34,107 nt of DNA from a virus, in IMG/VR virus record IMGVR_UViG_3300036945_001338, positions 1 to 34,107 of that record; one strand, written 5' to 3'. The position numbers were made by a program, and so were the translations under genes. Shown piece by piece: positions 15,151-32,361 of this stretch. How positions within the stretch are numbered: the stretch's first letter is position 1; each line of letters starts with the position of its first letter. The notes under the pieces were generated by a model. That model searched no databases. It was not told the DNA's origin and worked only from the letters and a program-made list of their open reading frames with translations.

Positions 15151-15189
15151 CTAAAGGCTGTAGCACAAATACTACAGCCTTTAGTTTTT
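15151..15189 (+). terminator. Rho-independent terminator at convergent gene junction
   Basis: A perfect 13-bp stem, CTAAAGGCTGTAG (15151-15163) with CTACAGCCTTTAG (15172-15184), has an 8-nt loop and is followed by TTTTT (15185-15189). It lies 4 nt after the last plus-strand gene and abuts the stop of the minus-strand gp46 C-terminal gene at 15188. The T run supports plus-strand termination. On the minus strand the same stem lacks a clear T run, so use in that direction is less certain. Confidence 0.9.
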
Positions 15190-15802
15190 AAACTCTCGTC
15201 ACTTCACTGTACTTTCCGTTATGTACAACAATATATTTGTTTCCAGTTAATGAGCACAAATTTTTATCATGAGTTACAATTATAAATTGTACTCCAAATT
15301 TATCAGATAAGAAACTTACGATCTCCCCGAATTTAGCTGTTAGTAAACCAAGATTTGAAACAGGTTCATCAAAAATTAGAGTATTTCTTAGATTTTTCTC
15401 AGAAAGAATATGAAATACTATTTTAAATACAAAACCAATAGTGCTTATTAGTCCTCCTCCGACATCTGTTTTTAAATCATCCAACTCTTCCTCACCATCA
15501 AAAATCTTCGGCTCCCACTCATAACCTCCAGCTTTTTCTTTCGGTGATAATTCAAAACGATATTCTCTGTCGTCCCAAATAAAAGAAATAACTTCATTTA
15601 CAGTTTCTTCTACTGTGGACTTGAATCCTAACTGAACTTCGTGCATAGAAGAAGAAATTATTTCTTTTGCATCTTCGAAAATTATTAAATCTTTTTTCGA
15701 AGATGCAAGTTTACTTGAGAGTTTTTTGTATTTAGTATCAAGATTTTCAAGATTAACTTTTAATCTTATATACTTTTCTTTGAGATCTTCAACGTTTTGC
15801 AT
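15188..15802 (-). CDS. Rad50/SbcC-like ATPase, C-terminal half (split gp46)
   Basis: This 204-residue protein is the C-terminal half of a gp46/Rad50/SbcC ATPase. A short coiled coil (about 1-50) leads into the ATPase lobe. That lobe contains the ABC signature-like DVGGGLIS (113-120), the Walker B segment TLIFDEPVSNLG (141-152, with D145 and E146) and the switch histidine in VTHDK (176-180). There is no Walker A, which lies in the separate N-terminal half at 17939-18985. Together the halves make about 552 residues, close to T4 gp46 (560). The start overlaps the end of the Ntn hydrolase gene by 14 nt and lacks a strong ribosome site, suggesting translational coupling. The expected partner is the gp47-like nuclease at 16515-17354. 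Confidence 0.85.
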   Translation of the reverse strand: MQNVEDLKEKYIRLKVNLENLDTKYKKLSSKLASSKKDLIIFEDAKEIISSSMHEVQLGFKSTVEETVNEVISFIWDDREYRFELSPKEKAGGYEWEPKIFDGEEELDDLKTDVGGGLISTIGFVFKIVFHILSEKNLRNTLIFDEPVSNLGLLTAKFGEIVSFLSDKFGVQFIIVTHDKNLCSLTGNKYIVVHNGKYSEVTRV

Positions 15803-16250
15803 TTGTTTTTGTAGCCCAAACTGTTTTAAAAGTCCTTATTTTGCCTCCAGTGAAAACATCTCTCTTAGCTGCCATTTTAACAGATTCTGCTGCTGTTTTT
15901 CCGAGATCAAGAGCTGTCAAAGCGTAACTTCCACCACTTCCAAAAGCATAACTTCTTTTTGGATTCATATCGCAAACAACAAGGCGACCTTCGTATAATC
16001 CAACGTTCTTCAAACCGTCTTTACTTACGATAAGACCCTCGATATCTGTATCTATTTCATCTTCGTCATAAGCGCATTCAGAAATATACATATCGAATAA
16101 TTTTTCAACCTTTCCCACTTCCCCACAGAAAAAACCAACGAGTCCATCTCTCAGATATTTTTTATCAAAATTGTCATCGACGATCCTCTGACCGCCAACA
16201 CATCTGGAGTCGTAAGCTACAATACCGTCCTTATAACTAATTGTTGTCAA
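15789..16250 (-). CDS. HslV/proteasome-beta-like Ntn hydrolase
   Basis: A 153-residue protein of the Ntn-hydrolase (HslV/proteasome beta) type. It begins TTG-ACA-ACA, giving M-T-T-I-S-Y-K-D-G-I-V-A-Y-D-S-R. Removal of Met1 would expose the catalytic Thr. D14 and K30/K31 fit the Asp and Lys active-site positions, and AFGSGGSYALTALDLGKTAAE (about 102 onward) matches the GSGG segment of the family, followed by TGGKI. The TTG start is preferred: the nearby ATG runs into TGA after two codons, a GGGGG ribosome site lies 5 nt upstream, and the Thr must be residue 2. HslU is not in the window. A role in protein processing or anti-host proteolysis is inference. Confidence 0.85.
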   Translation of the reverse strand: MTTISYKDGIVAYDSRCVGGQRIVDDNFDKKYLRDGLVGFFCGEVGKVEKLFDMYISECAYDEDEIDTDIEGLIVSKDGLKNVGLYEGRLVVCDMNPKRSYAFGSGGSYALTALDLGKTAAESVKMAAKRDVFTGGKIRTFKTVWATKTNAKR

Positions 16251-17363: not shown

Positions 17364-17942
17364 TTAAATCAAATTGCGCTCTTTTAAATATATATAAGAG
17401 GTAGACTCTATTGAACAAGTCCACTCCTGGTTATCAATCTCTGCTTGGTATCTCGCTCTTACTGCATCGTTAAAATTTAAAAAATATCCAAGGTGTTTAT
17501 ATTTTGAATTTATCATTATCCGCGACTCCCACTTATTCGACCTTTTCTTCCAAGATACTCCAGTAACTCCTGATGTGTTATTTTTAGAAATATTACAATT
17601 CTGTTGGTTGCACATTGAAGATGCTTCTCTAAGATTATCCCATTTATTGTTAGATCTATTCCTATCCATGTGATCCACTTGGTTTTCAGGGAAATAACCT
17701 TCTTGATAAAGAAAAGATAATCTGTGAGATTTGTATAATTTAGAATTTAACATAATTGATAAATATCCATCCCTTTTATCTATATGCCCAGCCTCTTTAT
17801 TTGCATATTTTGAATTCCAATTATTCCACCAATGGATATTCTTAAAATGACTCAAAGGTCTTTCATTCCAAGTGAATACACCTGTATCTGGATTATAATG
17901 CAAAGCTTCTTTTAAATATTCTTGCGTCAATTTAGTTTTCAT
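17364..17942 (-). CDS. HNH-AP2 homing endonuclease (copy 1)
   Basis: A 192-residue free-standing HNH endonuclease. The first 120 residues hold the HNH_3 fold: the motif HRLSFLYQEGY (H73), then QVDHMDRNRSNN (D90, H91) and DNLREAS (N103). An AP2-type DNA-binding domain follows (about 122-170, NTSGVTGVSWKKRSNKWESR, then LGYFLNFNDAVRARYQAE). I use the ATG at 17940-17942: the protein then begins MKTKLTQEYL, aligning with the paralog at 29351-30190, and this ATG overlaps the TGA of the gp46 N-terminal half as ATGA. An upstream in-frame start at 17972 would add 10 residues without support. It probably caused, or travels with, the split of gp46. Confidence 0.9.
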   Translation of the reverse strand: MKTKLTQEYLKEALHYNPDTGVFTWNERPLSHFKNIHWWNNWNSKYANKEAGHIDKRDGYLSIMLNSKLYKSHRLSFLYQEGYFPENQVDHMDRNRSNNKWDNLREASSMCNQQNCNISKNNTSGVTGVSWKKRSNKWESRIMINSKYKHLGYFLNFNDAVRARYQAEIDNQEWTCSIESTSYIYLKERNLI

Positions 17943-18985
17943 AATATTAACTCTTGTTGACATTCCGGACAAATTTTATACCCAAGATATTCATCTTCAA
18001 GGTCTCCCAGGTCCTCTTTAGATAAAGATAACTGTTTCGACAATTTTTTTAATAACAACATTTTATCCAATTTGTCCATTTCAATTTCTTCTTTTTTATT
18101 CAACTCATCTAAAGAAGATTCAAGTTTAGAGACAATATGAAACGTTGACTCTAAAATCTTCAGACCTTTAGTTTCTCTATTATACAAACTAATGTCTTTA
18201 TAGCAAGATATTATTTTTTTATTTTTCTCTTCAGCTTCTTCAAGTGACTCGTATTTCTTTATCAGTGATTCGCAAAATTCAATATTCTTTCTTATCAAAT
18301 CAGAATCGAAAGATATCAAGTCATCTTTTATTCTATGTATTGTTGAAAGATATTTTTCTTCATCTTTAATTTTGATTTCACATCTTTTGACATCAAGAAA
18401 CATTTGATCGATACCTGATAAATCAAACTTCTTTATGTCAATCTTCGTCAATCTTGCTTCTTCTTTTAATTCTTTACATTCTCTTTTTAATCTTAGAACT
18501 TCTTTGTTTACATCTTTCAATTTTACGTCAAATTGGTGTATTCCTATTGTTTGATTTATCTTTCTTGATATTTCTCCATTTCCAGTAAATAATAAATAAG
18601 GTAGATCGAATTGCCAAGAGAAGTTATCAGATGTCATCTTTATTTCATTCAAGACTTCATCTGGCACTTTTTTATTTAGATCTAAAAAGACTTTATCTTC
18701 ATCTGAATCTGATTTTATTGTGTATTTTGCTGTTTTCTTGGTCTTCTCGAATTGGATTAAGCAATCACTGAATTCAGCATCTATCACAGTTACTGGATCT
18801 TTCTTAGCAAACTTTGAAATATATTTATCACCACTTGGTTTATTCTCAACAAGAAGTCTCAGAGCATTCAGTGCTGCTGATTTGCCATGACTACTCAAGC
18901 CATAGATAACGTTTAAATTTTCACAGAATTCAAACGTAGAATCTTTGTGAGATTTGAAATTTTTTATACTGAGATTTTTTATCAC
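17939..18985 (-). CDS. Rad50/SbcC-like ATPase, N-terminal half with zinc hook (split gp46)
   Basis: A 348-residue protein matching the N-terminal half of gp46/Rad50. Strands IKNLSIKNFKSHKDSTFEF open the ATPase. Walker A is YGLSSHGKSAALNAL (GLSSHGKS, 29-36). QFDLPYLLFTGNGEISRKIN lies in the Q-loop region, and a coiled-coil arm covers about 150-335. The protein ends six residues after CPEC (C339-C342), the zinc hook by which Rad50 dimers join. It therefore stops at the point where a normal Rad50 arm turns back. The stop TGA overlaps the HNH start, and the start overlaps the stop of the upstream 236-residue gene by 4 nt. The missing C-terminal lobe is encoded at 15188-15802. Confidence 0.88.
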   Translation of the reverse strand: MIKNLSIKNFKSHKDSTFEFCENLNVIYGLSSHGKSAALNALRLLVENKPSGDKYISKFAKKDPVTVIDAEFSDCLIQFEKTKKTAKYTIKSDSDEDKVFLDLNKKVPDEVLNEIKMTSDNFSWQFDLPYLLFTGNGEISRKINQTIGIHQFDVKLKDVNKEVLRLKRECKELKEEARLTKIDIKKFDLSGIDQMFLDVKRCEIKIKDEEKYLSTIHRIKDDLISFDSDLIRKNIEFCESLIKKYESLEEAEEKNKKIISCYKDISLYNRETKGLKILESTFHIVSKLESSLDELNKKEEIEMDKLDKMLLLKKLSKQLSLSKEDLGDLEDEYLGYKICPECQQELIL

Positions 18986-20603: not shown

Positions 20604-21494
20604 CTATTGCAATCTGAAAGTATTAGTCCAATCTATCATCGATAAGTTATTTGTAAAACTGTGCATATGGTGTTCGGTAAAAACGTTTTTAAAGTCCCTC
20701 TTATATCCATAAAACTTCTTGATATCATGAACGACTATCGGATCTGCTTTATTCTGGAAGGGAAGAACAGAAACAGTTAAATAATCTTGGAATAACTTTT
20801 GATCTATTTTTTCGGGGAAAGGAATCTCTTTTTTTATAATTTTATTTGCATTAACCTTTCCGATTTTTTCAAAACCTGGGACTTCATTCTTTTTACCAAT
20901 TAAAGCTTTTCTTATAGGTATTTCTATAGGTGAGACTCCAAGTTTCTTCTCAACACTAACTCTTGTGAACGATTCATCTTTTATCATATTATAGCAATGG
21001 ACTCTCCACTTGATAAGTTGAAATAAATCTTCATCAGTTGAGATGATAATTATTTTATTTGAAGACTGATTTTCACTTACATGAGCAGCTATTAAATCAT
21101 CACCTTCATATCCATATTGGTTGAAACACTGAAATCCGAGAGAAGGCAAAATGTCATTATTAAGATATTCTATAACTTTCTTCTTTAGAGATTTATTTTC
21201 TTGATCTATTTCGTTTTTATGTTGTTTATACCAAGGATATACTTGTGCCCTATATGAATCATCACTATCAAAGAAAAAAATAAGGACAGAATTTCCAGAC
21301 ATTTTTCTTATTTGAAGAACCCTCTTCATAAACAAGAAGAGGGTTATATCCCAAATATTAGACTTAGAAGCAGATTTAGCTCCGTGATAGCATTGAGAAC
21401 CAAGATTATCCCCATCAATAAAGAAAAGAGTTTTATTCTCAATTTTGAGAATATCTCTTCTTTTTGAATTAGAATTTGCTTTTTCTTGGTTCAT
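20604..21494 (-). CDS. 5'-3' nuclease, FEN/RNase H-like, altered active site
   Basis: A 296-residue protein of the FEN1/T4 RNase H/5'-3' exonuclease family, which removes RNA primers and flaps. Motifs: LFFIDGDNLG (D27, D29), FFFDSDDSYR (D76, D78), YGYEGDDLIA (E130, D132, D133) and ISTDEDLFQL (D154, D156). The helix-hairpin-helix region reads GKKNEVPGFEKIGKVNANKI. In active FENs its front is normally G-D-x-x-D-N-x-x-G, so the two second-site aspartates are Lys and Glu here. This resembles E. coli ExoIX/Xni, which lacks the second metal site. AGGAGA lies 7 nt before the ATG, and the start overlaps the recombinase gene by 26 nt. Confidence 0.88.
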   Translation of the reverse strand: MNQEKANSNSKRRDILKIENKTLFFIDGDNLGSQCYHGAKSASKSNIWDITLFLFMKRVLQIRKMSGNSVLIFFFDSDDSYRAQVYPWYKQHKNEIDQENKSLKKKVIEYLNNDILPSLGFQCFNQYGYEGDDLIAAHVSENQSSNKIIIISTDEDLFQLIKWRVHCYNMIKDESFTRVSVEKKLGVSPIEIPIRKALIGKKNEVPGFEKIGKVNANKIIKKEIPFPEKIDQKLFQDYLTVSVLPFQNKADPIVVHDIKKFYGYKRDFKNVFTEHHMHSFTNNLSMIDWTNTFRLQ

Positions 21495-22719
21495 TTACTT
21501 TCTCCTCTCTCGTTAACCAAACATCTTCGACAACTCTTGATAAATGATCTTCAAGGTCATTATCCTCAATGATCTGAGTCAATCGGATTCTTGTTACAGT
21601 TTTTTCAGAAAGAAGACTTCTTTTAATCCTCAATTCTTTTGAAACTGTCTCAACTGGATAAGATTCTTTATAACCAATCAGATAGTTAATACAACTTCCA
21701 ATATTATCGACTCCATAATCCATAGTGATAATTGTATCTGCTTCTCTGAAAGCTTTTGAGACTTTGCTTCTTTTTATTTTAGCTCTTGTCTGAATAGCTC
21801 TCAAAAACTTTTGTCCATCAACTGTCTTGTCGAGTTTATCATAAACACTGAGCCAAGGAACAAGATGAGTATAGAAATTTAGAGAACCTTCTCCAGTTCT
21901 GTAAACCTCTTTGAAAGTAGTCCCGATCTTAACTCTTGTTTGGGAAAGAATGATCAAAGTGACATCTCTTCCGTTCATGAGTTCACAAACCTGTTTGAAG
22001 AATGTTTTTGAAGCATAAGCGGCTTTATCAAGATGGAAAGATCCTTTTTTCTTATCATCTTGATCTGACTCTTTCTTCTTGCTTGGCTTCTTATTAGGAT
22101 CATCAGCTTTTGCTTCAGCTTCGAAGCTTTTCATTTCTGTATCTGATTTTACAGCATCCCAAGAGTCGATGACATAGACAAGGCCAGTATCTTCTTTCAG
22201 AGTTTGAATTCTATTGAAAAAATCATGAGCGATCTTCTCAATTGTAGGTAGACCTTGCCAAATACAACTTCTAACAAAATCTTCACTATCATTTTTTGCA
22301 TTTTTGTTCCCAAACATCATGTCAATATCGAAGTCCATAACTGCTTCGTTATTGTTATAAACTATTTCTACCTTCTTTGTCTGAGGAAAGTGTTTGGATT
22401 TTTTAAGCTTATAGAAAGCTCTTGCACATACTTCTAAGGCGAAGATAGTTTTACCGGCAGAGCCATCTCCAACAAAATTTGTGATTCTACCTCTCGGAAT
22501 TCCACCATTAACACCTAACTGAGAACAGGCAAGATTCATAGGTGTGCTTCCAGTATCCAGCCAACTAATCGTTTTAGGATCAGCTATTGGCCTTAGAAAA
22601 TCAGGGACTTCATCTGACTCCATATCTGAAACACGATCTTCAATTTCTTGTTCAATAATATCTTTTTCTGTATCTTCTTTCTTATCTGTCTTAACATTTT
22701 TTTTAGAAACTTTCACCAT
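21469..22719 (-). CDS. UvsX/RecA-like recombinase
   Basis: A 416-residue RecA-family strand-exchange protein. The N-terminus (1-40) is charged and disordered. The core includes GIPRGRITNFVGDGSAGKTI (Walker A GDGSAGKT, 84-91), VEIVYNNNEAV (strand with the NNE motif), LVYVIDSWDAV (Walker B, 180-190) and LIILSQTRVKIG (L2-side strand with Q260). A Lys/Asp/Ser-rich insertion at about 199-228 lies between Walker B and the next helix, in the DNA-binding loop area, and is unusual. Length is near T4 UvsX (391). It sits between gp32-like SSB and the 5' nuclease genes, so it likely forms filaments on gp32-coated DNA in recombination-dependent replication. No UvsY homologue is recognised. Confidence 0.9.
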   Translation of the reverse strand: MVKVSKKNVKTDKKEDTEKDIIEQEIEDRVSDMESDEVPDFLRPIADPKTISWLDTGSTPMNLACSQLGVNGGIPRGRITNFVGDGSAGKTIFALEVCARAFYKLKKSKHFPQTKKVEIVYNNNEAVMDFDIDMMFGNKNAKNDSEDFVRSCIWQGLPTIEKIAHDFFNRIQTLKEDTGLVYVIDSWDAVKSDTEMKSFEAEAKADDPNKKPSKKKESDQDDKKKGSFHLDKAAYASKTFFKQVCELMNGRDVTLIILSQTRVKIGTTFKEVYRTGEGSLNFYTHLVPWLSVYDKLDKTVDGQKFLRAIQTRAKIKRSKVSKAFREADTIITMDYGVDNIGSCINYLIGYKESYPVETVSKELRIKRSLLSEKTVTRIRLTQIIEDNDLEDHLSRVVEDVWLTREEKVNEPRKSKF

Positions 22720-24772: not shown

Positions 24773-25729
24773 TCACGAATAATAATTGTAAATTAAAAGA
24801 GCAAGACCCGGTTTGCCAGAATAAATAACTGTTTCTTTAAAAACTTCAAGTATCAATGAAGCTCTCAGTCTCATTTCTTCTTTTTTCTTTTCATTTCCAA
24901 ATGGTTTGACCATTATTCGATAGAAATAACTTATGATTGCCATTCTTATCGATTCAGGAGCTTCTTTAATTGAATCAAGGAGTTCGAAAGCTTTATCCAT
25001 ACTTGACTGGTTCATTAACTCTGAAACAAGATCTTTGATTTCAACATTCTCTGATCCAGATACAAAATCTTCCAAATATTCATTTATTTGATCTGGTTTC
25101 AAGTTTCTTATCGCTTCAAGTATGCTCATGATGTCCCTTGGACAACCAGCCGATACTTGATAAACTTTTTCTATAGTTCTTCCGTCTATCTCAATACTCT
25201 CTTTTTCACACGTATCATTTATGAGAGAAACAGAATGTTCTTTCGATAATTCTTTGAACTTGTATTTTGTAGCCCTTTTTACAATAGCTGGTTTCAATTT
25301 TTCTGTTTCGGTGGTGCATAAAATAAAAAAAGTATTTTCAGGAGGATTCTCAAGTAGGTCAAGTAAACAGTTTTGCCAAGAGATACTCGCCATATGGACT
25401 TCGTTTAGAATGTAAATAGCGCACCCGTACATAGGAGAGTAACTACACTCTTCGACAATCTCCCTTGCGAACTCTACACCTGTTTTGTCTGATACGTTGA
25501 TTTCTTTAACAGACAAACTATTTCCACCATACTTCTTCACAATGAAAGATGACATCAATTTTGAGAATGTAGTTTTACCTGTACCTGAAGATCCAGAAAG
25601 CAAGAAAGTATCAGCATCAATTTTCTTGATATGAGATATGAACGATTTCCTGTTAGTTTCATTTCCAAATAGTTCTGAAAATGTCTTCGGCCTGTACTTG
25701 ATTTTCATTGATTCTTTGTGATCTGTCAT
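24773..25729 (-). CDS. DnaX-like clamp loader ATPase
   Basis: A 318-residue AAA+ clamp loader subunit. KYRPKTFSELFGNE is the typical N-terminal motif of DnaX/RFC subunits. Walker A is GSSGTGKT (46-53), Walker B-like is YILNEVHMAS (107-116, with Asn instead of the first Asp of DEVH), and AIVKRATKYKF covers the SRC region (the usual S-R-C is K-R-A). Sensor 2 is SAGCPRDIMSILEA (193 onward). A C-terminal helical collar follows. DnaX-type tau is much longer, so this looks like a gamma/delta'-length loader. ATG overlaps the preceding stop by 4 nt (ATGA). It should load the beta-like clamp at 31264-32361. No second loader subunit is obvious in the window, so it may work as a homo-oligomer or with an unrecognised partner. 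Confidence 0.85.
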   Translation of the reverse strand: MTDHKESMKIKYRPKTFSELFGNETNRKSFISHIKKIDADTFLLSGSSGTGKTTFSKLMSSFIVKKYGGNSLSVKEINVSDKTGVEFAREIVEECSYSPMYGCAIYILNEVHMASISWQNCLLDLLENPPENTFFILCTTETEKLKPAIVKRATKYKFKELSKEHSVSLINDTCEKESIEIDGRTIEKVYQVSAGCPRDIMSILEAIRNLKPDQINEYLEDFVSGSENVEIKDLVSELMNQSSMDKAFELLDSIKEAPESIRMAIISYFYRIMVKPFGNEKKKEEMRLRASLILEVFKETVIYSGKPGLALLIYNYYS

Positions 25730-26010
25730 ACTAATCCTTTATATTGAGTTTTTCGGTTTGATTTCCAAGTTCTCTGTTTCGTTCTTCTATCATCATCCCA
25801 TGCATTTGGAAGCTTTTTATAAGACCTTTTTCTTCTTATTAATTTTGTAAAACCTTCAAATTCGTGAATACAGTTCAAGCGTCTTTCATTGGTTGTTTTT
25901 ATTCTTTTCCAGTATCCACCACGTTTTCGCTTCCTAACAAACGGAACTGGATCAAATCTGTATTTATATTTTATTTTACTGTAATAAGAAGCCAAATAAA
26001 AGATGTTCAT
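25726..26010 (-). CDS. Small very basic protein between polymerase and clamp loader
   Basis: A 94-residue, Arg/Lys-rich protein with pI clearly high. It overlaps the polymerase stop at its start and the clamp-loader start at its end by 4 nt each (ATGA-type), so it is translated as part of the same coupled unit. It begins MNIFYLASYYSKIKYKYRFD and ends WKSNRKTQYKGLV; the middle has several K/R clusters (RKRKRGGYWKRIKTTNERR). It could bind DNA or RNA, or act as an accessory factor of the replicase. No family is recognised. Confidence 0.7.
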   Translation of the reverse strand: MNIFYLASYYSKIKYKYRFDPVPFVRKRKRGGYWKRIKTTNERRLNCIHEFEGFTKLIRRKRSYKKLPNAWDDDRRTKQRTWKSNRKTQYKGLV

Positions 26011-29000
26011 AGATTCCTCTTTACCATTTCATAAAATTTTTTAAGAGACTTTTTGAATTTCATTTTATTCTCTTGTCCAATATACGCAAAACCTGTAGAA
26101 TAACCATAAAATATAAAACTCTTATATCTCTCACTCCAAATAAACTTACCGTAAAATTCTGAGGCTCTTGCTTCTGGATTGAAAAATTCAACAGAAATTC
26201 TTCCTAAAGCAAGTATTATTTTCGGTTTAGCATGGAATATTTCTTTCTCTAAATGTTTAGCACATGCATTTTTTTGCTCATCGATCGGTTTCTTCCCTTT
26301 TCCTGGAAAACACTTTGTGCAACAAGCGATAGTGAGATCTTCATAGTTTACCCCAATATCATACAGATCCATCAAAACTTCATTTGCGACATTGCAAGAA
26401 AACAATTTATTATTTTGGTTAGCATCAGAATATGACGGATGCTCTGTTATTATCATCAAATTCTTATCGCCAAATACAGTCTCAAATGGATTTCCATTAA
26501 GACTGCACCCATTACATTCGAATTCATAGAAGTCTCGTTCTACGTTCTGAATGAGCTTAATTTCTGGATACTTTTTACCATTAAAGATCTTATAAATAAT
26601 TTCTTCTGAATATTTCTTTTTACATAAATCAAGAAGAGTTTTTCCTATGACTTCAAGATCGTTTGATATTGGGAATTCAAATAATTCCTGGACTTCAAGT
26701 TTGGGTTTCTCATTGTAGTCCCAACTGCCTATAGTCGTCAATAGTTTTTTTATTTTTGTTTCGTTCTTACTTCTCTCTGGTGTCGAGTAAAACCCGGAAA
26801 ATGGTTTGAATTTTTGCGGAATTTCGAGAGATGCTTCAATGGCCTGTTTTTCTCCGAGACCTTTTATTTCTGAAAAAGGGGCAAGAAGGATATTGTCATT
26901 AACTGTCCAAGTGGAGGCTTTTGAATAGCCTACTTTTGGGAGTTTAATAGATAACCCATAATCATAAGCTTCTTTGATGATAGAGCCTTTTTTATCATCC
27001 TCTCCCATCGTTAAATTTGCACAATAAAAGTGAGATGGATAGTGGATTTTTAGCCAAGCAGTAACATAACTCAAGAAAGCGTAACTTACTGAATGAGATT
27101 TATTGAAAAGGTAATTAGCAGAAGCTTCGAGTTCAGTCCAGAATTGTAGGGCTTCATCTTTTGTAAATGTCTTCTCTTTTAAGCATCCATTTACGAACAT
27201 ATCTTTATACTGGTCGAACTCTCTAACATCTCTTTTTTTACCAATGATCTTTCTGATGTTGTCGGCAATGACAAAAGAAAGTCCAGCTAAACGGGTAAAC
27301 ATAAACATGATTTGTTCCTGGTAAGGTATCAAATTGAGTGTTTCTTTCGTTATATCATCATATATCGGATGCCTCTTTTCCCATGTCTTTCCATGTTTTC
27401 TTAAAAGATATTCATCAGCGATACCGGAATCTGAAGCTCCAGGTCTTACAAGAGCAACACATGCACTCATATCTTCAAAGCATGAAATACCAAGCTTTTT
27501 TATATAATCAGTCATTGTCCTTGTATTCATTTGGAATATTCCAGCAGTATTACCTTTTGATAATTCTTTGAATACCTGCTGATCATCAACATCGAGAAAA
27601 GATCTTATATTGTATTCTTTACCTTCTGTTTCTTTTATTAATTTGAATGTTTCATCTACAATTGATAGTTGAGATAATCCAAGTAGATCGAGCTTCATCA
27701 AACCAGAATCTTCTGCATCGTGCATATCCCAATTAACTACGATATGACCACTTCTTTTTGAGAGATTGCATTGCCCTGATTTAGTTAGATCTTCTTTTGA
27801 TACTACAACAGCAGAAGCATGTTGCCCACACCCTCGAACAGTACCTTCGAGTTTTTGAGCGTATTCGACTATTTTTGGATATTTACTTGCAAAAGCTCTT
27901 CCTTCTTCAGTTTTTTCTATGGCATTTTTTATTAAATCCTCACCTTTATCTTCGAGAGATTTAGCAAAAATATCCACCTCCTCAAGAGGTATGCCGAACA
28001 CTCTTGAAACATCTCTGATAACGCTTTTCCCTTTTAAATATGAAAACGTAGAAACGCCAGCAACATTATTCTTTCCATATTTATCTATGAGGTATTGCCT
28101 CGCTTCTTCTCTTCTATGTTTTGGTATGTCAATATCAATGTCCGGGAACGAGGCTCGTTCCCTATTTAAAAACCTCTCAAATATAAGGCCATGTCTTATT
28201 GGGTCTATTTCAGTTATACCGAGGATATAAGAGATCAGTGAGCCAGCGGCCGAGCCACGGCCAGGACCAGGAGTCCACCCTTGATTCCTACACCACTCAA
28301 GGAAATCCTGCACAATTAAAAAATATGTTTCAAAATTCTTTTCAGTAATTACTTCATATTCCATTCTTGCTCTATCAAGATATTCTTTATTGTCTGACAA
28401 TTTGAATCCGAGTCTTTTTTCTGCTCTTTCTGTATAAAGTTTTTTAAGATTTTGTTTTGGAGATAATTGCGGATAAGGTCTAAAATCAGGAAGTGAAATA
28501 TCTCTTTTCTTTATTCTAAAGTCCTTACACTTTTCTGCAATTTCAAGTGTATTAAATAAAGATTTCTTTGCTGTCTTCTCGTCAACAATACCTCTTGTGG
28601 CGTAATTCTCAAGGATTTCATCCCATGACTGAAGATAGCTTCCTTCGAATTTGAACCTGAATCTATTAGGATCATCCATTGTGGTTTTAGTTTGTATGCA
28701 TAAAAGGACATCATGGATAATATGATCTTCTTTATTTACATAATGAGAGTCACAAGATGTGACCAATTTGACCCCAGTCTTTTTGTTTAATTCAAGACAT
28801 TTTTTATTAATCGAGTCTTGTGCATCAAGATGATGAGGCATTATCTCAAGGTATAAATCATCTTTCATTTTGCTATGAAGTTTATTGAAGAATTCTTCTG
28901 ATTTGTCGAGATTTAAAAAACTTCCAGCGCAAGCTGTAGAACAAATTGTTCCTTCACAGAACTCATAAAGAATATTGAAGTCTATCTTTGGTCTTCTATA

Positions 29001-29342
29001 GAAATGTTTTAGATTGGCTATAGACAACATATTTAGGATGTTTCTCCATCCAACTTCGTTTTTCGCAAACAAACAGACATGTCCCGATTTGCCTTTAAAG
29101 TCATCGTATGAGGTTACGTAAAGTTCTACTGCTGCAATCGGGATTATGTCGTTTTTAATGCAATCATCTTGGAAGTTTATACAATTGTCCACCGAGGCAT
29201 GATCTGACAGAGCCATATATTGGAAGTTCATCTCTTTTGCTCTTTGTGCGTACTCATGCGACTTTGCAAGGCCATCTAATAATGATCCTCGATCTGAGTG
29301 ATTATGAAGATGGCAAAAATTCCTATTTTTTATATTGGACAT
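26007..29342 (-). CDS. dnaE: DnaE-type DNA polymerase III alpha with C-terminal UDG-like domain
   Basis: A 1111-residue family C replicative polymerase. The PHP domain (1 to about 270) starts HLHNHSDRGSLLDG with H11, H13, H15, then D47-H48, E73, H88 and D198-H200, so metal ligands are kept as in proofreading-competent PHP domains. The catalytic aspartates are D401 and D403 (FPDIDIDI) and D552 (KLDLLGL), preceded by GPGRGSAAGSLISYILG. Fingers and a helix-hairpin-helix (GLGEKQAIE) follow; the fingers end at about 880 and VQELFEF (884-890) may be a clamp-binding peptide. The usual OB/tau-binding tail is missing. Instead, about 935-1111 looks like a family 4 uracil-DNA glycosylase with Fe-S cysteines C943, C946, C1011 and C1027. 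Start ATG is 9 nt after the HNH gene. Confidence 0.95.
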   Translation of the reverse strand: MSNIKNRNFCHLHNHSDRGSLLDGLAKSHEYAQRAKEMNFQYMALSDHASVDNCINFQDDCIKNDIIPIAAVELYVTSYDDFKGKSGHVCLFAKNEVGWRNILNMLSIANLKHFYRRPKIDFNILYEFCEGTICSTACAGSFLNLDKSEEFFNKLHSKMKDDLYLEIMPHHLDAQDSINKKCLELNKKTGVKLVTSCDSHYVNKEDHIIHDVLLCIQTKTTMDDPNRFRFKFEGSYLQSWDEILENYATRGIVDEKTAKKSLFNTLEIAEKCKDFRIKKRDISLPDFRPYPQLSPKQNLKKLYTERAEKRLGFKLSDNKEYLDRARMEYEVITEKNFETYFLIVQDFLEWCRNQGWTPGPGRGSAAGSLISYILGITEIDPIRHGLIFERFLNRERASFPDIDIDIPKHRREEARQYLIDKYGKNNVAGVSTFSYLKGKSVIRDVSRVFGIPLEEVDIFAKSLEDKGEDLIKNAIEKTEEGRAFASKYPKIVEYAQKLEGTVRGCGQHASAVVVSKEDLTKSGQCNLSKRSGHIVVNWDMHDAEDSGLMKLDLLGLSQLSIVDETFKLIKETEGKEYNIRSFLDVDDQQVFKELSKGNTAGIFQMNTRTMTDYIKKLGISCFEDMSACVALVRPGASDSGIADEYLLRKHGKTWEKRHPIYDDITKETLNLIPYQEQIMFMFTRLAGLSFVIADNIRKIIGKKRDVREFDQYKDMFVNGCLKEKTFTKDEALQFWTELEASANYLFNKSHSVSYAFLSYVTAWLKIHYPSHFYCANLTMGEDDKKGSIIKEAYDYGLSIKLPKVGYSKASTWTVNDNILLAPFSEIKGLGEKQAIEASLEIPQKFKPFSGFYSTPERSKNETKIKKLLTTIGSWDYNEKPKLEVQELFEFPISNDLEVIGKTLLDLCKKKYSEEIIYKIFNGKKYPEIKLIQNVERDFYEFECNGCSLNGNPFETVFGDKNLMIITEHPSYSDANQNNKLFSCNVANEVLMDLYDIGVNYEDLTIACCTKCFPGKGKKPIDEQKNACAKHLEKEIFHAKPKIILALGRISVEFFNPEARASEFYGKFIWSERYKSFIFYGYSTGFAYIGQENKMKFKKSLKKFYEMVKRNL

Positions 29343-29350
29343 AAAAATCC

Positions 29351-30190
29351 TTAAATTAAATTATGATCTTTTAGGTACTTGTAAGAAGAAGAATTCTCTT
29401 TAAATCTCCAAGCAGGGTTTTCTAATTCTGCTTGATACCTTCTCATAACTGCGTCGTTAAAACTTTTGAATGAACCAAGATATCTGCTTTTTCCTTCCGA
29501 TCTAATATATGCATACCAGACATTATCATGTTTTCTCCACCATACGCCGCAAACTCCAGATATGTTATTTGATTTAATATCACTGCTTGTAAAGTCTTTT
29601 ATGGAGAAGTCTTCTAATAAATTATTATCTTTCAGGTACTTATAGGCAGAGGACTCTATAGAGCATGTCCAGTTTGGATTTTCCACTTCTTCTTTATACC
29701 TTCTCATAACAGCATCTTCGAATCTATCGAACCTCCCAAGAATGAAATTCCTAATGGAAATTGTTATTTGAGCGACCCATTTTTTCCTTGCTACCTCCCA
29801 GTATACGCCCGTAACTCCTGACGTATTCGCTGAGGATAAATGGCTGTTCTGAAGGTTGCACTGTACAGATACTTCTCTTAAATTATCCCACTGATTATTT
29901 AATTTATTTTTGTCTATGTGGTCAACATGATTTTCTGGAATGTAACCCTCAACATATAAAAATGCGAGTCTGTGAGCATAATATAATGTATAGTTTATTG
30001 AAATTAAAGTATACCCTGTCTTAGAGTAACGACTTCCAGCTATTTCATTTGCATATTTTGTATTCCAAGCCTTCCCTGAACCGATAGTCTTAAAATGACT
30101 TTCCGGCCTTTCATTCCAAGTAAAAATACCAGTTTCTGGATCATAATGCAAACATTCTTTAAGATATCCTTGAGTCAATTTATTTTTCAT
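29351..30190 (-). CDS. HNH-AP2 homing endonuclease (copy 2, two AP2 domains)
   Basis: A 279-residue free-standing HNH endonuclease, paralogous to the one at 17364-17942 over its whole length (shared MKNKLTQ/MKTKLTQ start, FTWNERP, WDNLRE). HNH residues: H73 (AHRLAFLYVEGY), D90/H91 (HVDHIDKNKLNNQ), N103. Two AP2-type domains follow in tandem: about 122-172 (NTSGVTGVYWEVARKKW, LGRFDRFEDAVMRRYKEE) and about 208-258 (NISGVCGVWWRKHDNVW, LGSFKSFNDAVMRRYQAE). Each is followed by a similar S-S-x-Y-K-Y-L-K-D-x-N-L segment. The second domain seems to come from an internal duplication. The gene is 8 nt upstream of dnaE, the replicative polymerase, a usual target zone for homing genes. Confidence 0.9.
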   Translation of the reverse strand: MKNKLTQGYLKECLHYDPETGIFTWNERPESHFKTIGSGKAWNTKYANEIAGSRYSKTGYTLISINYTLYYAHRLAFLYVEGYIPENHVDHIDKNKLNNQWDNLREVSVQCNLQNSHLSSANTSGVTGVYWEVARKKWVAQITISIRNFILGRFDRFEDAVMRRYKEEVENPNWTCSIESSAYKYLKDNNLLEDFSIKDFTSSDIKSNNISGVCGVWWRKHDNVWYAYIRSEGKSRYLGSFKSFNDAVMRRYQAELENPAWRFKENSSSYKYLKDHNLI

Positions 30191-31263: not shown

Positions 31264-32361
31264 TTAAACTTTAGGTTGTGCCCGTGTATAAAGAGCGTAT
31301 TGACCGTCATCACCTGAGACTACTCTTACAAGAGTCTCGTCTTCACTGATTTCAAACTCATTTTTGATTTTCATAATACTCTCAAAATGATCCATAAGCA
31401 AGGCGAAATTCAATTCACAATCAATATCATTCTCTGTAGGAGATTTGACGATAATCTCACTCTTAGTCTTTGGAGAGTTGGATTGTGAAATAACTGTCAT
31501 CTCACCATCAAGAAGAACGAATTCGATGAAAGGGCTTTTCTTCTTGTCGTTGATCGTTTTGATTTCAGGCATCTTGTCAAGAATTTCTCCAGGAATCTTA
31601 ACGAAGTGACCACTTTTGAAATTTTCAACAAAGTCAAGAATTCCTGACAGTGATGTGAAGTTATGCTGTCTGAAACCGCATTCGACTCCAGCACCATAGA
31701 AGAAAGCCCATCTTTTGTCAACAGCGTATTCATTAACTTCCATATTTTTCAGTGTTTTGATAGCTGCCTGTGAAAGACCGAATTCCTTCTGGAATTCCTG
31801 ATCGATTTCAACAATAGAAATTCTCTGATTATCAGAAGAAAAGATCTTATCATCTTTCATCCAAACCAGTGAAAAAGGTGTTGTCTCTTTCGACTTCTGA
31901 GTAGTTTTTTCACAGAAGGCAATACCATTATGGAATCTTTCAGGAATCTCAGATGCATCGACATCAGAACTACAAGTAGGGATCACATCATTAACATTGG
32001 GGATAATCTTAACAGAGAATGTTGTATTCGTCTTTGCAGCACCATCGGTATCAATACTTACTGAAAGAACTTCTCCATTCAATTCGAAATTAACACCTTT
32101 ATCGACTCCTTTCGTTTTCACTTTATCGATAAAATTGAAGAACTCATCTGGAACACAGATACCTTGTTCTCCCGTAATCTTTACAGGAGCTTCGATCACA
32201 ACGAAGATGTTGGGATTGATTACAAGGACTTTATTCTTTGCAAGAATAATCTGCCCCATGTAATCTCCGAACATAACAGGGATTGATTCATTTTTAGCAA
32301 TGGCATCTTTGATCTGATTCATTGCTTTTTTGATCTGAAATAGTTTAATTGAAAATTGCAT
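31264..32361 (-). CDS. Beta-type sliding clamp (DnaN-like)
   Basis: A 365-residue protein, the same length as bacterial DnaN (366 in E. coli), and it fits a three-fold repeated beta-alpha-beta clamp domain. The first repeat begins MQFSIKLFQIKKAMNQIKDAI, and the spacing IPVMFGDYMGQIIL then FVVIEAPVKITGEQGICVPDEFFNFIDKV follows the DnaN plan. Later are CELNFALLMDHFESIM and a final RVVSGDDGQYALYTRAQPKV, matching the DnaN C-terminal end where the M-P-M/R-L segment sits. Bacterial conserved motifs are blurred, so this is a diverged clamp. Together with DnaE and the DnaX-like loader it completes a Pol III-style replicase. It follows the highly charged gene at 32391-33401. Confidence 0.75.
   Translation of the reverse strand: MQFSIKLFQIKKAMNQIKDAIAKNESIPVMFGDYMGQIILAKNKVLVINPNIFVVIEAPVKITGEQGICVPDEFFNFIDKVKTKGVDKGVNFELNGEVLSVSIDTDGAAKTNTTFSVKIIPNVNDVIPTCSSDVDASEIPERFHNGIAFCEKTTQKSKETTPFSLVWMKDDKIFSSDNQRISIVEIDQEFQKEFGLSQAAIKTLKNMEVNEYAVDKRWAFFYGAGVECGFRQHNFTSLSGILDFVENFKSGHFVKIPGEILDKMPEIKTINDKKKSPFIEFVLLDGEMTVISQSNSPKTKSEIIVKSPTENDIDCELNFALLMDHFESIMKIKNEFEISEDETLVRVVSGDDGQYALYTRAQPKV

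Follow-up and report, generated by a model that had tools for sequence, protein, structure and literature searches.

A phage DnaE polymerase ending in a degenerate domain of the family 4 uracil-DNA glycosylase type

What does the fold of a uracil-DNA glycosylase (UDG) do at the end of a phage replicase, and does it still act as a glycosylase there? The question is raised by a 34,107 nt stretch of viral DNA (IMG/VR record IMGVR_UViG_3300036945_001338, positions 1 to 34,107; hereafter, the window), the minus strand of which codes for a DnaE-type polymerase that ends in a domain resembling the family 4 UDGs; the plus-strand frame is full of stops. The reading that we favour, which leans on analogy and to which we assign a probability of about one in two, is that this tail, derived from a glycosylase, holds DNA or serves for docking within a phage replisome that is self-contained.

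The polymerase has the core of a DnaE-type family C enzyme (PHP, Pol3 core, fingers, HhH and catalytic aspartates), as proposed in the original prediction, which had been made by a model from the sequence alone. Pfam recognizes the PHP (residues 11-170), DNA_pol3_alpha (298-555) and finger (559-723) domains, together with a weak HhH match (796-867), and phmmer matches the core to DnaE structures in the PDB. In the full-length model (predicted local distance difference test, pLDDT, 88), residues 4-875 superpose on DnaE, with a Z-score of 48.5 to 5lew. Throughout the alignment, the catalytic triad (Asp403, Asp405 and Asp552) does not vary, and the PHP domain retains its nine metal ligands (H13, H15, D23, H48, E73, H88, C138, D198 and H200; motif as defined in PMC12926913); with both sets intact, the protein looks like a working replicase, the PHP exonuclease of which is possibly active. 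No Pfam match to an OB domain or to the tau-binding C-terminal domain (CTD) was found in the polymerase: the HhH region is followed by a linker, and then by the UDG fold, such that UDG (PF03167) lies where the OB and CTD would stand. Within the linker there is a conserved motif, [QK]-E-L-F-x-F (QELFEF at 885-890 in the window), which is possibly a clamp-binding peptide.

The relationship of residues 935-1111 to the UDGs, on which the original prediction had staked itself, emerges from each line of analysis. Pfam matches UDG at 959-1103 (E = 2.4e-8 with the full-length protein as query, 1.1e-9 with only residues 900-1111), and the significant phmmer matches of the tail in the PDB are only to UDGs, namely, TM0511 (1.9e-9), Tth UDG (8e-8) and the S. 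tokodaii enzyme (8e-7); the tail is also matched by an independent UDG4 model that we built solely from four stand-alone UDG4 enzymes. An AlphaFold2 model of residues 890-1111 (46 sequences; pLDDT 84) returns the family 4 fold, giving Z-scores of 21-23 over 175-180 residues in VIA-align comparisons with family 4 UDGs (4zbx, 1ui1 and 1vk2); these include 22.9 to S. tokodaii UDG (178 residues aligned, root-mean-square deviation 2.4) and 21.9 to Tth UDG. In the full-length model, residues 935-1111 likewise superpose on family 4 UDGs (Z 21.6), and the split from the DnaE core is clean. Moreover, C943, C946, C1011 and C1027 are exactly where the prediction had placed them, and align with the four [4Fe-4S] ligands of family 4; the tail thus combines the UDG alpha/beta fold with a complete ligand set, and presumably holds the predicted cluster.

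The pocket is another matter. In Tth UDGa, uracil is bound by E41, G42, E47, F54, N80 and H155: the side-chain of Asn80 reads the base via bidentate hydrogen bonds, and His155 contacts its O2 (PMC5387724). Relative to the family 4 enzymes (Tth UDGa, 1ui0/1ui1; TM0511; S. tokodaii, 4zbx), the window tail shares the fold, the four cysteines with the 16-residue spacing of the second pair, Glu41, Phe54 and Lys83, but it is fused to a polymerase and has His for Gly42, Asp for Glu47, Cys (Cys1007) for Asn80 and Gly for Asn89, whereas His155 becomes either Ser or Tyr, depending on one alignment column. There is no histidine in the polymerase beyond residue 1037, and therefore the catalytic His of motif 2 is absent under any alignment. 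Both catalytic motifs are degenerate, just as the prediction had given them: motif 1, GE[GA]PG with Glu47 in family 4, is TEHPSYSDANQN (TEHPS...D), and motif 2 is GYSTGFAYI. A reading of TEHPSYS as a motif 2 of the type HPSY was rejected, as the match amounts to only 6.6 bits (E = 61), i.e. chance. The cost of such changes is illustrated by mutants of Tth UDGa, in which k2/Km falls from 2.4e5 to 94 for H155S (~2500-fold), 5.5e3 for N80A (~40-fold) and 2.0e3 for E47A (PMC5387724). Judged by its residues, the window tail almost certainly does not act as a uracil glycosylase; with Asn80, His155 and Gly42 all replaced, it has probably lost uracil recognition too.

To see this tail in context, viral contigs were scanned for relatives. 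A single-sequence scan found nothing; alignment queries were used instead, and two such scans yielded ~150 loci (labelled L), a sample that is biased towards the queries, such that counts are not frequencies. The stand-alone-UDG4 model matches the C-terminus of ~50 DnaEs and no unrelated open reading frame significantly; besides the window, 52 DnaEs with fused tails were tabulated, nearly all of them from phages (four GenBank phage DnaEs included). A tree of 96 DnaE cores (FastTree; local support only and some long branches) resolves two groups: clade I, in which L103 is the sister of the window (support 97), and clade II, which includes the nickie and Rhizobium phages. Within clade I, the four cysteines, Asn80 and His155 are kept by 15 members, which may be active as glycosylases, and the tail is degenerate in the window, L103, L016 and L086; all four of these keep the cysteines, though their pocket residues differ. 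Eight further clade I polymerases are tailless (L019-L023, L100, L101 and L105), with no stand-alone UDG gene near them in the flanks retrieved. In clade II, the tails are all degenerate and the cysteines mostly lost, and most members share an alternative pattern (Asp41, Glu47 and Asn-Pro); its sister, L034, has an intact tail. Most simply read, the tree starts from an intact UDG, which would have decayed some three times within clade I and a single time on the way to clade II.

Two observations suggest function, one for intact and one for degenerate tails. At motif 1, two of the 15 clade I members above, L015 and L017, read GQDPG, a paired E41Q and G42D; in Tth UDGa, either substitution alone costs two to three orders of magnitude, and the engineered pair only ~5-fold (PMC5387724). 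The co-occurrence of the doublet with retained His155 and Asn80 suggests that catalysis has been selected for in these fusions. For pairs of clade II tails, Nei-Gojobori omega is 0.04-0.47, mostly near that of their own cores (e.g. 0.12/0.12 and 0.14/0.15), with the tail above the core in L066/L052 and L044/L051; these degenerate tails are under purifying selection, and a tail without catalytic residues is therefore still maintained. Additionally, L018, L092-L094, L031 and L086 carry an extra conserved domain of ~150 residues between the HhH and UDG, with an invariant GGxYG-like stretch. It has no sequence match to Pfam families or solved structures, and an OB fold for that of L018, L031 and L086 is not supported by Pfam or PDB profile searches. 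The claim that the UDG replaces the OB and tau-binding tail is incomplete in one detail: no OB domain was found in the window protein, where a linker precedes the UDG, but some clade I relatives have this domain there.

The DnaE-UDG architecture itself is already known. Timinskas et al. (2013; PMC3919608) noted, for some Yersinia pestis and Salmonella enterica strains, an accessory DnaE in which a UDG replaces the OB and CTD: like the window protein, it joins an archaeal-type UDG (PF03167) to the end of a PHP-Pol3-HhH core, but it is presented, in one sentence, as a rare bacterial accessory polymerase, and the passages available describe neither its catalytic state nor its Fe-S ligands. Set against that description, the window copy belongs to a phage replicase of clade I, with four cysteines and no catalytic motifs. 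The idea of an independent fusion of a UDG to a family C enzyme was thus sound, although not new, and the fusion is widespread; the scope across phages is the new part. The clade II DnaEs (Rhizobium RHph_N1_15/B1VFA, Pseudomonas nickie and the ~110 kb record of Klebsiella p4727; phrog_405/phrog_4335) resemble the window in having a degenerate C-terminal UDG-like domain, but most have lost at least one cysteine and share Asp41 and Asn-Pro, and their cores are in the other clade. UDG-like domains also occur on replicative family A polymerases of phages (Thermus phiLo, PDB 9qhs; Rhizobium TM39; Bacillus BSTP; Yersinia P744), where, unlike in the window, the UDG is N-terminal, and L009 and L010 have intact or nearly intact motifs. 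The loci of this type (L010 from P744, L009 from TM39 and H134-H144) often lie beside a dCMP/cytidine deaminase gene, and the P744 polymerase is also near genes for hydroxymethylpyrimidine synthase, dUTPase and thymidylate synthase (TS). In the open-access literature, which leaves most subscription papers outside its reach, we found no account of the phage DnaE-UDG clades, of intact versus dead copies, of a dead form that retains its Fe-S ligands, or of 9qhs. Polymerase-glycosylase fusions, C-terminal in family C and N-terminal in family A, are far commoner in phages than the one published sentence implies, and clade I, with apparently intact and dead tails on the same replicase, offers a natural comparison between repair, base reading and DNA holding.

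Our favoured reading begins with a phage replicase that has its own clamp and clamp loader, and to which a whole family 4 UDG, probably still active, would have been fused. In the window copy, the uracil-reading and catalytic residues would then have decayed, with the Fe-S ligands and fold retained, and the tail, tethered C-terminal to the HhH region by a flexible linker, would now be a DNA-binding or docking module, standing in for the OB and tau-binding domains and helping the polymerase to stay bound to DNA or within the replisome. Such a use would be comparable to that of the vaccinia D4 UDG, an essential part of a processive polymerase complex; the analogy is functional only, as D4 is not fused but associates as a separate protein through A20 (PMC4450493). 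Were dead tails to raise processivity, phages and poxviruses would independently be using the glycosylase fold to that end. With a clamp, clamp loader, UvsX and exonuclease in the operon, the binding of host tau need not occur. Several points weigh on the other side: DNA binding by the tail is inferred; the motif-2 loop, the part that family 4 enzymes push into DNA, has been lost, so the DNA surface of the tail may be altered; no close relative of the window copy was found, and the selection evidence is that of the clade II tails; and the tail is missing in several clade I polymerases, and hence is dispensable in some phages.

Were the tail instead a protein-protein dock alone, having replaced the tau-binding CTD, it would contact the phage clamp loader, clamp or helicase and not DNA. 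Its position in place of the OB and CTD, the phage-encoded clamp and clamp loader, the flexible linker in the model and a tolerance of pocket decay are all in keeping with this, but UDG folds are DNA binders and many fused relatives retain full active-site motifs, which are needless for pure docking; we consider it doubtful. The original prediction had suggested a sensor of uracil or modified bases, in which the dead pocket would bind a template base and stall or mark the polymerase, as in the read-ahead recognition of archaeal family B enzymes. A UDG fold does lie beside a polymerase here, His155 mutants of Tth UDGa have a near-normal Km, showing that dead enzymes can still bind (PMC5387724), some UDG-bearing polymerases belong to base-modifying phages, P744 being an example, and 9qhs is described as solved 'with modified template'. 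However, the sensor idea is weakened by the replacement of Asn80, the uracil reader, by Cys, by that of His155, and by the alterations to motif 1 and the motif-2 loop. Moreover, the window, a genome fragment, yielded no gene for dUTPase, TS or ThyX, and among 11 clade I fusion records searched, also fragments, dUTPase and TS are present in none and ThyX in three, and each has no UDG other than the fused domain. In fragments, such absences count for little, but we saw no sign of uracil-containing or modified DNA in the window phage or clade I, and a sensor seems unlikely.

It also strikes us as improbable that clade I DnaEs carry a competent UDG acting at the moving fork, with the tail of the window lineage now a template reader of some unusual or modified base that controls the polymerase. 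Equally improbable is that the tail has no function left and is the remnant of a fused UDG that was once active, persisting only because a deletion would be needed to remove it: some three separate decays of the active site within clade I and the existence of tailless relatives would fit, but the four cysteines and a complete fold-bearing sequence persist in the window tail, and the purifying selection on degenerate clade II tails is comparable to that on the core. Finally, a new pocket (His42 and Cys80) might act on another base; the UDG superfamily does include families without the motif-2 His (2 and 6; PMC5387724), and most clade II members have a regular alternative pattern. The window motif 2, however, has neither His nor Asn, and its pattern differs even from that of its sister L103, making a glycosylase of changed specificity very improbable.

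The features of the locus are collected in Table 1. The operon runs in the order sliding clamp, HNH endonuclease, polymerase, 94-residue protein, clamp loader, UvsX-like recombinase, exonuclease and endonuclease VII, and several of these genes adjoin DnaE in clade I relatives too.

Table 1. Coordinates of the polymerase, its parts and neighbouring genes in the window
Feature	Position	Strand	Residues or remarks	Basis
Family C (DnaE-type) DNA polymerase ending in a UDG-like domain	26007..29342	-	1111 aa	Pfam, PDB phmmer, full-length model
DnaE core: PHP, palm/thumb, fingers, HhH	26720..29331	-	4-874	Pfam, model, alignment
Linker	26538..26738	-	~868-935; mostly low confidence	model
UDG family-4-like domain	26010..26540	-	935-1111	Pfam, PDB phmmer, stand-alone-UDG4 model, structure model
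Fe-S ligand pair C943-x2-C946	26505..26516	-		aligned with family-4 cysteines
Degenerate motif 1 TEHPSYSDANQN	26412..26447	-	966; family 4: GE[GA]PGxxED	alignment
Fe-S ligand pair C1011 and C1027 (K-C-F-P ... C)	26262..26312	-	KCFP at 1010	aligned with family-4 cysteines
Degenerate motif 2 GYSTGFAYI	26079..26105	-	1080; family 4: HP[AS]	alignment
Sliding clamp, phrog_947 DNA polymerase processivity factor	31264..32361	-		PHROG match, synteny
94-aa protein, phrog_12793, function unassigned	25726..26010	-		overlaps polymerase stop codon
Clamp loader ATPase of the replication operon	24773..25729	-		Pfam; adjoins DnaE in L016, L022, L024, L098
UvsX-like recombinase	21469..22719	-		syntenic with polymerase in relatives
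Exonuclease of the replication operon	20604..21494	-		synteny

Two phrog_99 HNH endonuclease genes lie in the replication operon (29351-30190 and 17364-17972), one of them directly upstream of the polymerase, and at 15789-16250 there is a gene of the HslV-like peptidase family, beside an ATPase-like gene (15188-15802). Three UDG matches in fecal 'phage' records (L005, L006 and L007; MT839790, MT836347 and MT837376) were set aside as stand-alone UDG4 genes, not fusions; labelled Bacteriophage sp., these records carry bacterial housekeeping-like genes and are probably bacterial contamination. Matches in genome contigs proved to be Aquificota DnaEs without a UDG tail, and those of L171, L173-L176 and L179 have large in-frame insertion(s) at the same core positions, probably inteins. 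Interruptions are also found among the phage polymerases: the DnaE-UDG of L048 (3066-7772; at least 1569 residues) has an intein (PF14890) with an HNH-like part between the fingers and HhH; in L074 and L082 (5998-7461 and 8278-9930), a clade I-like DnaE is divided between two open reading frames with overlapping profile coordinates (~800 bp apart in L082), possibly by an intron, intein remnant or insertion; and in Klebsiella phage p4727 (L004, 4034-8274), an HNH homing endonuclease-like open reading frame separates the two parts of DnaE.

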